Source: Gilvimarinus chinensis DSM 19667 (lineage in GTDB: Bacteria; Pseudomonadota; Gammaproteobacteria; Pseudomonadales; Cellvibrionaceae). Taken from it: a stretch of DNA of 64,000 nt. A program made the translations under genes and the position numbers. How positions within the stretch are numbered: position 1 is the first letter of the stretch; each line of letters begins with the position of its first letter. Location: positions 678,482 to 742,481 of the forward strand of contig NZ_KB898707.1 of the NCBI RefSeq assembly GCF_000377745.1. The letters run 5' to 3'. This document shows, piece by piece, positions 28,712-35,003 of the stretch. The notes beneath the pieces are model-generated. The model was not told the origin of the DNA, did no database searches, and saw only the letters and a list, made by a program, of their open reading frames with translations.

Positions 28712-29536
28712 ATGAAGAACCCCCTGTTGTTAACGGCTGTTTTAGCGGCCGTTTACTCTGCTGGTACACAGGCTCAGGTTCAGGTAGTGGACTCCCCGGT
28801 GCAAAGTGCGCCGGGGCAGGCCGCTACAGTTGCCCCTAATGGCCTGAATAATAATCAACAAGCCGAGCTTTTCTATCAGCTACAAACTCTGCAGCAAGAA
28901 GTTATGAACCTTCGAGGCCTGGTTGAAGAGCAAGCCTTTGAGCTAAAGCGGTTAAAACAGCAAAGGCTCGATGATTATCTGGACCTTGATCGTCGTATCA
29001 GTGCGTTAACGACGGGGACTACCCCAGACACATCTCCTGCAGCTGCGGCGTTTGCGCCAAATGGTGACACACAGGTTTCTTCTGCTTCGCAACCGGCTGC
29101 CAATATAGGCACTCGCACATCCGGGGTGGATGTGGCGGCTGCATTACCGGCCGGCGTGTCGGAGGGGGCGAGTGAAGCTGAGGTGTACGGTGCTGCCTAC
29201 GATCTGCTGAAGCAACGTCAAATCGATGCGTCGGTAGCGGGATTTAAAGCCCACTTAGAGCGTTTTCCTCAGGGCGAATATGCCTCAAACAGTTATTACT
29301 GGCTCGGTGAAATTTATCTGCTGAAGAACGACTTACCAGAAGCTCAACGGTGGTTTGGCGATTTATTGGCGGAGTTCCCGGACAGCCGTAAGGTGCCTGA
29401 TGCACAGTTTAAGTTAGGTAAGGTTTACCACTTGCAAGGGCAGAATGATCGTGCTCGTGAATTGTTGGACATTGTGGCCGCAAGTAACGCCGATGCTTCG
29501 CGTTTGGCTCAGCAGTATCTGCAAGAAAACTTCTAA
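28712..29536 (+). CDS. cpoB: Cell division coordinator CpoB (YbgF)
   Basis: A 274-residue secreted protein: signal peptide ending AGTQAQ, an N-terminal coiled-coil (ELFYQLQTLQQEVMNLRGLVEEQ region) used for trimerization, an Ala/Thr/Ser linker, and C-terminal TPR repeats (AEVYGAAYDLLKQRQ, SYYWLGEIYLLKNDLPEAQ, PDAQFKLGKVYHLQGQ). CpoB couples Tol-driven constriction with wall synthesis. Last gene of the Tol-Pal cluster. Confidence 0.93.
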   Translation: MKNPLLLTAVLAAVYSAGTQAQVQVVDSPVQSAPGQAATVAPNGLNNNQQAELFYQLQTLQQEVMNLRGLVEEQAFELKRLKQQRLDDYLDLDRRISALTTGTTPDTSPAAAAFAPNGDTQVSSASQPAANIGTRTSGVDVAAALPAGVSEGASEAEVYGAAYDLLKQRQIDASVAGFKAHLERFPQGEYASNSYYWLGEIYLLKNDLPEAQRWFGDLLAEFPDSRKVPDAQFKLGKVYHLQGQNDRARELLDIVAASNADASRLAQQYLQENF

Positions 29537-29676: not shown

Positions 29677-29701
29677 AAAAAAAAGGCCCACATAGTGGAC
29701 C
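29677..29701 (-). terminator. Terminator of the CsrB/RsmZ-like sRNA (minus strand)
   Basis: Read on the minus strand, GGTCCAC-TAT-GTGGGCC (one G-U pair) is followed by eight T residues. It ends the GGA-rich transcript described at 29685-29964. Confidence 0.85.
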
Positions 29702-29964
29702 GCGGGTGAACTTGTATCCATGTTCGAAACGTGAGCTTAAATCCCTAGCTCCAGCATCCTGCTTGTATGTCCTTAACCCCTGTCGTGGTTAGCTCGGCAA
29801 TCCTGTCCGTTAGCGACTGTCCTTAATCCTTGTCTTCCGTATTGGTTGTGATGGTGTCGTTCCTTGGCCTTCCTGGCAGCACATCCTGTAAATCATCCTG
29901 ATTTTATCGGTGTCCCTGCAACGTCCCTGTGAGATACAGTTTCGTCCAACTGTAAGGTTTTGAA
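29685..29964 (-). ncRNA. CsrB/RsmZ-family regulatory RNA, many GGA motifs
   Basis: On the minus strand this stretch has no supportable protein frame but holds 16 GGA triplets between 29930 and 29685 (17 if the 5' hairpin at 29953-29936 is included), many in the CAGGA/AAGGA/CAGGGA context that CsrA/RsmA binds. Several lie in hairpin loops: ATCA-GGA-TGAT, ACA-GGA-TGT and ACAGTT-GGACGA-AACTGT. The region ends in a terminator and is preceded by a GacA/UvrY-like box. RNAs with this plan soak up CsrA and so relieve repression of target mRNAs. The 5' end is not fixed: a -10 TTAATA at 29972-29977 would start near 29964, whereas TGTATC at 29933-29938 would start near 29926. The coordinates use the longer form. 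Confidence 0.88.
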
Positions 29965-29987
29965 AAGGCGCTATTAACGCTTCTTTC

Positions 29988-30005
29988 TGTAGGATATTTC
30001 CTACA
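29988..30005. promoter_or_regulatory. GacA/UvrY-type upstream activating box
   Basis: TGTAGGATATTTCCTACA is a perfect 18-bp palindrome matching the TGTAAG-N6-CTTACA pattern bound by GacA, UvrY and VarA in front of Csr/Rsm RNA genes. It lies 24-62 bp upstream of the candidate start points of the minus-strand GGA-rich RNA, downstream of ppnN. Confidence 0.82.
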
Positions 30006-30041
30006 TTGCCATGGTGCTGTTTCAATAGCGTGACAGTCACG

Positions 30042-31454
30042 TTACACAATTTCGTAACAGGGGCTGTAATGGCTGCCGGGCAGCTTCATGCGTCCTTGTG
30101 CTTGAAACGCTTTTAACAATTCGTCGACCGGCTGCATAATGCATTGCTCGCCACTGATTTTAAAAAGACCGTGAGCTTCTATCGCTCGAATACCCTCTTC
30201 TTTTACATTGCCTGCAACAATGCCCGAAAAGGCGCGCCTTAGGTTGGCGGCGAGCTGGTGATTATCCAGATCACGACTGAGCTGTAAGCTGCGCATATTC
30301 TCGTGGGTGGGTGCAAAGGGCTGCTGAAAATCCGGGGAGATTTTCAATTGCCAATTAAAATAATACGCGTCGTCGGTATTTTTACGAAAGGCTCTAACTG
30401 AAGCAATTCCGGCGACCATCGCGTGGGCCACAGCTTCCGGATTATCGATGATAATCTGGTATTTCTGTTGTGCCTCAGGCCCCAGAGTTGCACTGATAAA
30501 CTGGTCGATTTGGCGGAAGTAGTCGGCGGCAGAGGCAGGCCCTGTGAACACTAAAGGGAAGGGCAGTTCACGGTTGTCAGGGTGCAGTAAAATGCCGAGC
30601 AAATACAAAATCTCTTCGGCGGTACCCGCCCCCCCTGGAAATACCACAATACCGTGACCGGCGCGTACAAAAGCTTCCAGCCGTTTTTCAATGTCGGGCA
30701 TAATGGCCAGCTCGTTGACAATCGGATTCGGCGCTTCAGCGGCGATGATGCCCGGCTCGGTAATACCGATATAACGCCCTACACCTAACCGTTGTTTGGC
30801 GTGCCCGATGGTGGCACCCTTCATTGGGCCCTTCATGGCACCCGGGCCACACCCGGTGCATATATCCAGCCCTCGTAATCCCATTTGGTATCCGACTTTT
30901 TTGGTGTAGTCGTATTCGCCCATGCTGATGGAGTGGCCGCCCCAGCAAACGACGACGTTGGGATCGACTTTGGGGCGAATAATATCGGCATTGCGCAACA
31001 TGTGAAAAACAGCGTCGGTGGTGTCTTCGGGCGCTGCACTTTGCAGAACGTGTCTTAGGCGTTCATCGCTGCTGGCGAAAATTACATCGCGTAATACAGC
31101 AAAAAGGTGTTCGCTGATACCCCGGATCATTTTGCCATCCACAAAAGCGCTGGCGGGTGCGCCTTTTACATCCAATTTGATACCGCGCTCTTCTTGAATA
31201 ATACGAATGGCAAAATTCGGGTAGCGCTCCATCAATTCTTTGCCGTCATCCAAAGAGTTGCCGCAGTTCAATACGGCCAGTGCGCAACTGCGAAACAACC
31301 TATAAAGCCCGCTTTGGCTGACATCCAGCAATTTGGCGACTTCGGCCTTGGAAAGAATATTAAGCTGGTCCTGAGGTGAAATAATCGCATCGATGGTGTG
31401 GTAAATACCGCTCTCTCGATGGGTGTGCTGGTAGGGCAACTGACTTTGTGGCAT
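30042..31454 (-). CDS. ppnN: Pyrimidine/purine nucleotide 5'-monophosphate nucleosidase PpnN
   Basis: A 470-residue protein aligned along its whole length with E. coli PpnN (YgdH, about 454 residues): an N-terminal DUF4478 domain (SGLYRLFRSCALAVLNCG), a central LOG Rossmann domain with WGGHSISMGEY, CTGCGPGAMKGPMKGA and the PGGAGTAEE active-site motif, and a C-terminal domain ending RMKLPGSHYSPCYEIV. It splits nucleoside monophosphates to base and ribose-5-phosphate and is activated by (p)ppGpp in E. coli. The gene ends one base from the palindrome upstream of the Csr-type RNA, so read-through could feed the RNA. Confidence 0.94.
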   Translation of the reverse strand: MPQSQLPYQHTHRESGIYHTIDAIISPQDQLNILSKAEVAKLLDVSQSGLYRLFRSCALAVLNCGNSLDDGKELMERYPNFAIRIIQEERGIKLDVKGAPASAFVDGKMIRGISEHLFAVLRDVIFASSDERLRHVLQSAAPEDTTDAVFHMLRNADIIRPKVDPNVVVCWGGHSISMGEYDYTKKVGYQMGLRGLDICTGCGPGAMKGPMKGATIGHAKQRLGVGRYIGITEPGIIAAEAPNPIVNELAIMPDIEKRLEAFVRAGHGIVVFPGGAGTAEEILYLLGILLHPDNRELPFPLVFTGPASAADYFRQIDQFISATLGPEAQQKYQIIIDNPEAVAHAMVAGIASVRAFRKNTDDAYYFNWQLKISPDFQQPFAPTHENMRSLQLSRDLDNHQLAANLRRAFSGIVAGNVKEEGIRAIEAHGLFKISGEQCIMQPVDELLKAFQAQGRMKLPGSHYSPCYEIV

Positions 31455-33299: not shown

Positions 33300-35003
33300 A
33301 TGGCGACAATTGACAGACGCGCTTATGCGGAAATGTTTGGCCCCACTACGGGTGATAAAGTTCGCCTTGCCGACACCGAGCTGTGGATTGAGGTAGAAAA
33401 GGACTACACCATTTACGGTGAAGAGGTAAAGTTCGGCGGCGGAAAGGTTATTCGCGACGGTATGGGTCAGTCGCAAGCCAGTTGCGCCGATACCCCCGAC
33501 ACCGTGATTACCAACGTGCTTATTCTGGATTACTGGGGTGTGGTAAAAGCAGATGTCGCCCTAAAGGGTGGTCGTATTGCCGCGATCGGCAAAGCGGGCA
33601 ACCCGGACATTCAACCGGGCGTTACCATTGTAGTGGGCCCGGGCACTGAAGTGATTGCCGGTGAGGGACAAATTTTAACGGCCGGTGGTATCGACGCGCA
33701 TATTCATTTTATTTGCCCGCAGCAAATCGAAGAAGCGTTAATGAGTGGCGTGACCACCATGATTGGTGGGGGCACAGGCCCGGCTACGGGCACCAACGCG
33801 ACTACCTGTACACCTGGCCCCTGGCATTTGGCGAAAATGTTGCAGGCGGCCGAAAGCTTCCCTATGAACCTTGGTTTTTTAGGTAAAGGCAACGCCAGTT
33901 TACCTTTGGCTATCGAGGAGCAGATTGCCGCAGGTGCACTGGGGCTTAAGCTACACGAAGACTGGGGCACCACCCCCGCATCCATCAACAACTGTTTAAA
34001 CGTGGCTGAACAATACGATGTGCAGGTGGCCATTCACACGGACACGCTGAACGAATCGGGCTTTGTGGAAGACACCATCGCTGCGTTTGATGGCCGCACC
34101 ATTCACACCTACCACACCGAAGGTGCCGGTGGTGGTCACGCGCCGGATATTATCAAAGCGTGCGGCTTGCCCAATGTACTGCCCTCGTCCACGAATCCCA
34201 CCCGTCCTTACACCGTGAACACCATTGATGAGCATTTGGATATGCTGATGGTATGCCACCATCTTGATCCAAACATTCCCGAAGACGTGGCCTTTGCCGA
34301 TTCGCGTATTCGTAAAGAGACCATCGCGGCGGAAGACATACTCCACGATTTGGGCGCTTTCTCGATGATCAGCTCGGACTCGCAGGCCATGGGGCGGGTA
34401 GGGGAGGTGATTTGCCGAACCTGGCAAACCGCACATAAAATGCGTGTACAGCGCGGTGCCATTCCCGGTGAAACGTCAAGCGGTGATAATTTGCGGGCAA
34501 AGCGTTACATCGCCAAGTACACCATTAACCCGGCGATTGCTCACGGCATTTCCCACGAAGTGGGTTCTATTGAAGTGGGTAAGCTGGCCGACTTAGTCCT
34601 GTGGAAGCCCGCCTTTTTTGGTATTAAGCCCTCGCTTATTATAAAAGGCGGCGCGATTGCTGCGGCGCCTATGGGCGATCCCAATGCGTCTATTCCCACC
34701 CCGCAGCCTGTTCACTACCGCCCCATGTTTGGCGCCTATGGCAAAGCCTGTACCGGTACTTCGGTAACGTTTGTCAGTCAGGCATCCATCGAAGCCGGTA
34801 TTAAAGGTTCATTTGAGTTAGAGCGGCGCCTGGTGGGTGTGAAAAATTGCCGTTCAGTGACAAAAGCGTCAATGATTCTTAACGACTACCAGCCGCACAT
34901 GGAGGTTGACCCACAAAACTATGAAGTGCGCGCCGATGGTCAGTTACTGACTTGCGAGCCCGCAACCGAGTTGCCCTTGGCGCAGCGCTATACGTTGTTT
35001 TAA
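33300..35003 (+). CDS. ureC: Urease subunit alpha (catalytic)
   Basis: A 567-residue enzyme subunit with all nickel ligands in the usual numbering: His134 and His136 (DAHIHF), carbamylated Lys217 (GLKLHED), His246, His272 (HTYHTEG) and Asp360 (SSDSQAMG), and the catalytic His320 in MVCHHLD. It hydrolyses urea to ammonia and carbamate. The gene starts one base after ureB ends. Confidence 0.99.

Follow-up and report, generated by a model that had tools for sequence, protein, structure and literature searches.

A candidate GacA-activated CsrA sponge RNA of the CsrB/RsmZ kind beside ppnN in Gilvimarinus

Csr/Rsm RNAs control broad life-style switches in bacteria, and they drift so fast in sequence that annotation misses them. 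Many Cellvibrionaceae degrade polysaccharides. Escherichia coli CsrB is a 369-nt RNA with 22 GGA motifs. The UvrY site of its gene is given as TGTGAGAGATCTCTTACA, with the centre of the palindrome at −183/−182, in excerpts of PMC4682653. Pseudomonas RsmX, RsmY and RsmZ are associated with a GacA upstream activating sequence whose consensus appears as TGTAAGNNATNNCTTACA in part of PMC9911603, and each of the four P. brassicacearum Rsm RNAs holds 6–10 GGA motifs (PMC7911923). A lineage-specific Csr RNA without significant identity to CsrB has a precedent in Pseudoalteromonas Pf1, an sRNA with 21 GGA motifs that does not match the well-studied Csr sRNAs, those of E. coli among them, at significant identity and that was tested by knockout and in E. 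coli (PMC9927453). In the open-licence literature searched, we found no Csr sRNA of Cellvibrio, Saccharophagus, Gilvimarinus or the Cellvibrionaceae; neither Cellvibrio japonicus nor Saccharophagus degradans was among the matches listed for Csr and sRNA papers, and the program name CSRB_FIND drew no match. A 2006 paper on the prediction of CsrA sRNAs may hold an earlier prediction of such an RNA. Six genus or order names looked for are absent from the main text of a study on machine-learning prediction of Rsm sRNAs (PMC5568370).

Here we analyse a stretch of 64,000 nucleotides (the window) from a 4.07 Mb Gilvimarinus genome (Cellvibrionaceae) and describe within it an unannotated candidate sRNA gene. 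The best reading of positions 29677–29930 on the minus strand is a putative GacA-activated CsrA sponge RNA of the CsrB/RsmZ kind, to which we assign a probability of roughly 90%. The first-pass annotation had placed a cluster of GGA motifs on the minus strand between cpoB and ppnN, correctly, and had proposed the CsrB/RsmZ type. The features of the locus are as follows.

30042..31454, minus strand: ppnN (gene name as given by the first-pass annotation), the upstream neighbour, in the same direction
30005..29988, minus strand: GacA/UvrY-type box TGTAGGAAATATCCTACA, a perfect 18-nt palindrome
29943..29938, minus strand: predicted −10 hexamer GAAACT, exactly 44 nt after the box
29930..29677, minus strand: predicted CsrA-sponge RNA, 254 nt with 16 GGA, its start placed 8 nt past the −10
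29789..29775, minus strand: block ACCACGACAGGGGTT, kept in Gilvimarinus copies and holding no GGA motif
29701..29685, minus strand: terminator stem-loop GGTCCAC..GTGGGCC, which ends the GGA cluster
29684..29677, minus strand: T8 tract of the terminator
28712..29536, plus strand: cpoB, the convergent downstream neighbour, with TolA-binding trimerisation and TPR domains

The locus resembles CsrB/RsmB (RF00018) in its many GGA motifs, intergenic position, terminator and 18-nt UvrY/GacA palindrome upstream, and it resembles the Pseudomonas Rsm genes in the type of its GacA box. It departs from E. coli CsrB in being shorter, with fewer GGA motifs and fewer open GGA loops, and in the position of the palindrome, which is centred at about −66 from the start proposed here; its 16 GGA motifs exceed those of the P. 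brassicacearum Rsm RNAs. Like Pf1 it would be a lineage-specific, GGA-rich RNA of Csr type, although it belongs to another genus.

Density of GGA motifs is what first sets the region apart. On the minus strand, 29677–29964 contains 17 GGA in 288 nt, 10 of them ANGGA, whereas shuffles that preserve dinucleotides average 9.2 GGA (s.d. 2.0) and reached neither 17 GGA nor 10 ANGGA in any of 2,000 trials. The mean for this strand of the window is 2.4 GGA per 288 nt, and the maximum outside the sRNA cluster is 12 on the minus strand and 9 on the plus strand, the runner-up stretch of 12 lying inside a 625-aa open reading frame (ORF). The 16–17 clustered motifs claimed at first pass are thus confirmed, 17 for the region and 16 for the predicted transcript. 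In comparisons with five aligned relatives, the window's GGA triplets are retained in 59% of cases and other triplets in 36%, a level equalled by 138 of 20,000 random draws; AGG (57%) and CAG (62%) are retained about as well, partly because both overlap GGA.

As judged from the sequence, the candidate gene is non-coding, has a terminator of its own and lies downstream of a GacA/UvrY palindrome. The box, which the first-pass annotation had missed and which, at its set distance from a −10-like hexamer, we grade as the best evidence for the gene, agrees with the published GacA consensus at 12 of 14 fixed bases, and its two departures are complementary to each other. A loose form of the box occurs at 14 places in the host genome compared with 10 for a reversed control pattern, so the box by itself proves little. 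More telling is its distance from the −10. Across 26 homologous genes, the window included, a hexamer of the form N-A-N-A-N-T stands exactly 44 nt from the box in 25, and the next best offset accounts for 4 of the 26. The hexamer of the window, GAAACT, is weak; the six remaining Gilvimarinus copies have GATACT here, and further relatives have GATAAT, CATAAT, GAGAAT, GAAAAT or GACAAT. When the best −10-like hexamer was sought 34–55 nt past the box without anchoring, in 36 rows of which some come from one and the same genome (28 for this gene and 8 for another one described below), it fell at 44 nt in all but three (L030, G056 and G051). L030 has GATAAT at 44 nt as well, and for G056 the scan picked a duplicate box, the second box of that genome being the one used in the 26-gene alignment. 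The fixed spacing looks like a stable signature of the predicted promoter, set against an RNA sequence that drifts.

With the −10 at 29943–29938, we place the start near 29930. This bears on the two hairpin loops noted at first pass: ATCA-GGA-TGAT is real, its GGA being unpaired with probability 1.0, whereas ACAGTT-GGACGA-AACTGT (29953–29936) overlies the predicted −10 and so is probably promoter and untranscribed, which is why the transcript is given 16 GGA and not 17. The T8 terminator had been called rightly, and its stem is identical in the six aligned copies. Folding gives a mixed picture. The folding energy of the region is no better than that of shuffles (z 0.08). GGA motifs of the window have a mean unpaired probability of 0.59 compared with 0.49 in shuffles, equalled by 6 of 60, and E. 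coli CsrB reaches 0.80, equalled by none of 60; among relatives, 0/60 shuffles equal L024 and L025, and 6–28/60 equal L002, L022, L023 and L026. An RNAalifold consensus of six sequences shows a double change in 13 of 57 pairs with a covariation term of +0.62 kcal/mol, which gives no overall support for a common fold.

The host genome also encodes candidates for the proteins of the circuit. CsrA is represented by one gene (67 aa, above its cut-off), which follows a frame read by eye as aspartokinase. A GacA-like regulator scores 259 bits, below the NCBIfam cut-off of 280, and adjoins a frame read by eye as UvrC. A BarA/GacS-like kinase of 923 aa (G000 contig C6, L184:2271-5039) lies beside cysM; the match is near full length at 725 bits, below the NCBIfam cut-off of 890, and the protein has HisKA, HATPase, receiver and Hpt domains and a borderline HAMP. 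Pseudomonas, too, has gacS beside cysM and gacA beside uvrC. A search that detects PF09984, the sensor domain of GacS, in E. coli found none in the host genome, so the kinase may respond to another input signal than E. coli BarA does. An earlier GacS candidate, L183 (856 aa), proved to be CheA-like.

We propose that GacS drives phosphorylation of GacA and that GacA, once phosphorylated, would turn the gene on by binding the palindrome, which lies about 66 nt ahead of the start. Transcription would begin at about 29930 and end at the GGTCCAC..GTGGGCC-T8 terminator, and the roughly 16 GGA sites of the RNA could bind several CsrA dimers, freeing the mRNAs that CsrA controls. Such a candidate makes Gac/Csr control of the Cellvibrionaceae testable.

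Gene copies extend through the genus. The sRNA gene follows ppnN in seven of eight Gilvimarinus genomes, recognized by DNA match in G000, G005, G007, G002 and G003 and by place in loci L025 and L026, whose coordinates agree with G001 and G006; G004 gave no DNA match. The host ppnN is 79–90% identical to ppnN of five Gilvimarinus records, four of them from named species, in keeping with its place in this genus. All seven predicted transcripts carry 14–22 GGA. In G. agarilyticus, added GGA hairpins bring the copy (L025:4492-5000) to about 429 nt with 22 GGA, as many GGA as in E. coli CsrB. Searches of plasmid and phage DNA returned no match.

A similar gene design occurs after ppnN in relatives of Cellvibrio and Marinimicrobium type. 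We compared post-ppnN DNA for 40 of 54 matches in the family outside Gilvimarinus and 20 of 37 in the order. At a ppnN identity of at least 71%, all nine loci have 11–20 GGA per 250 nt in the direction of ppnN; none of the remaining 51 regions exceeds 9, and on the opposite strand none of the 60 exceeds 10. Among 24 of 80 named loci examined, those of Cellvibrio, Marinimicrobium and MAG type show 10–20 GGA directly after ppnN. Because unrelated genera also show counts of 10–12 GGA a long way from ppnN (L034, L055 and L070), the weakest loci (10 in L027 and L035) are unremarkable by count alone. A profile of the seven Gilvimarinus transcript starts (at most 150 nt each) found nothing in 70 post-ppnN regions with default filters and nine weak matches with filters off (best E 0.48; seven of the nine in the expected clade), so the case for homology of the RNA body between Gilvimarinus and Cellvibrio is built on location, promoter and GGA content and not on sequence match.

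A second sRNA gene with a GacA box was found in G000 (contig C8, from 78889; L110, with copies L111-L117). It is matched in all eight Gilvimarinus genomes, carries 4–9 GGA and has CATAAT or GATAAT exactly 44 nt past the box in every one of the eight copies. Its 3′ part is strongly kept, together with a terminator-like hairpin. Rfam gave no match to it in L021 (E 1) or in L110, L116 and L117 (E 0.1), and beyond Gilvimarinus there was one weak match (E 0.005) among 71 family genomes.

We then built a profile, R1, from the promoter and 5′ part of 26 genes. At E 0.01, and among the matches listed, R1 has matches in 56 of the 71 family genomes and none in 15, with up to eight per genome. In the host genome it finds the window gene, which was used in training, as well as the second sRNA gene, which was not (E 1.8e-5); no third match was among those listed. 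Some R1 matches cover only the GGA-rich part (positions ~69–140). From genera without a ppnN-linked gene we took 16 R1 loci (L198-L202 and L204-L214); in their genomes ppnN lies elsewhere than the R1 locus in 11 of 16 and had no match in the other 5. Twelve of the 16 show the box, 44 nt, a −10-like hexamer and 8–18 GGA in the next 260 nt, a spacing that is partly there by construction since R1 includes the promoter and its matches lean on it; L209, L210, L213 and L214 do not fit the strict box and spacing pattern. In genus g29 of the Cellvibrionaceae, to which L212, L213 and L214 belong, three consecutive R1 matches lie within about 1 kb in each of G067, G035 and G054. Read by eye, L212 and L214 of this genus hold three tandem Rsm-like RNA genes, each with a terminator-like hairpin, and several of these tandem genes score as RsmY below threshold.

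No covariance model recognizes the candidate at its cut-off. The first-pass annotation had named the lack of such a hit as counting against its reading: at Rfam cut-offs there was none, and what was found is a sub-threshold, full-length fit of CsrB at E 10 (29985 to 29675; 14.3 bits against a cut-off of 71, E 0.092). Neither RF00018 CsrB, RF00195 RsmY nor any other family of clan CL00106 reaches its gathering score in the window, and RsmY was not listed for it at E 10, where only the best of a clan appears. Sub-threshold matches to CsrB or RsmY occur in three of the six other Gilvimarinus copies scanned: L025 of G. agarilyticus, the best relative (CsrB, 34.6 bits, E 6.4e-6, below cut-off), L026 (RsmY, 29 of 57 bits, E 0.0037) and L022, the same gene as L003 (CsrB, 23.2 bits); L002, L004 and L005 had no CsrB or Rsm match at E 1. 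The sub-threshold CsrB matches span the whole model. The Cellvibrio-type loci scanned with Rfam showed no CsrB or Rsm match. At E 0.1, 16 family loci yielded eight Rfam matches, of which six fell in clan CL00106 (five RsmY, one CsrC), all six below gathering; another 12 loci had no match at this E value. With no model at cut-off, the RNA is CsrB/RsmZ-like in its apparent working yet outside those Rfam families; by its predicted design it fits the functional class but no present Rfam family.

Three other accounts of the region deserve weighing. It could be mainly the 3′ untranslated region of ppnN, a promoterless read-through tail that sponges CsrA or regulates ppnN. The gap between the ppnN stop codon and the box is a mere 36 nt, the scan reported no terminator-like site on this strand within it, a scan for the sigma-70 consensus reported no promoter at the sRNA gene, and the RNA keeps its place beside ppnN across a clade. 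Against this stand the box and −10-like hexamer at fixed spacing and the R1 matches that combine the box, its spacing and many GGA but do not lie beside ppnN, in relatives without a post-ppnN cluster (for example G065, G019, G013, G050, G029, G038 and G012), and we consider the account improbable. Still less probable is a reading in which the GacA-controlled RNA works chiefly through base pairing seeded by ACCACGACAGGGGTT, and binding to CsrA takes second place. The block is near-invariant in seven Gilvimarinus copies despite holding no GGA (exact ACCRCGACAGGGGTT in 6/8 genomes, one mismatch in G001, and none within one mismatch in G004), which speaks for such a seed; however, GGA number is kept across the copies, and on either strand, with up to two mismatches, the block has fewer matches than its reversed control in each of the eight genomes. 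Tried as an antisense seed, ACCRCGACAGGGGTT showed no excess of similar sites over the control pattern.

That the region is a short protein-coding gene or a purine-rich spacer due to chance we regard as scarcely credible. A 79-codon ORF (29810–30049) does cross it, and the Cellvibrio relative L037 has a 79-codon ORF in its region too, but the former starts before the GacA box is reached, no ORF within the predicted transcript is longer than 28 codons (the longest has 14 to 79 codons in 11 relatives), indels between relatives are frequently not multiples of three, and chance is opposed by the shuffles above. The first-pass view that no credible protein frame exists is upheld. The reading as a CsrA sponge RNA of the CsrB/RsmZ kind, by comparison, draws support from the box and its spacing, the terminator, GGA motifs kept despite drift, the circuit genes, the second GacA-box sRNA gene in all eight Gilvimarinus genomes and the sub-threshold CsrB and RsmY matches.

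More speculatively, and with more doubt than belief on our part, the Cellvibrionaceae may have their own non-Rfam family of Gac-controlled CsrA sponges, whose defining mark is a rigid promoter (GacA box, 44 nt, −10) and not the RNA sequence. Its loci would differ between genera, amplification would have given a genome several such genes, tandem arrays of three among them, and in Gilvimarinus the RNA would have acquired a conserved loop that holds no GGA and serves a second function. The promoter signature offers a way to find Csr/Rsm RNAs across the family.

One further element of the window came from the Rfam scan at gathering, which reported no sRNA in the region of the candidate gene and a single match in the whole window, to 5_ureB_sRNA (106.5 bits; 33450–33735, minus strand), which lies antisense to a plus-strand reading frame that resembles urease. 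It is present in L022 and L025 too, and may merely reflect coding conservation of the urease gene.
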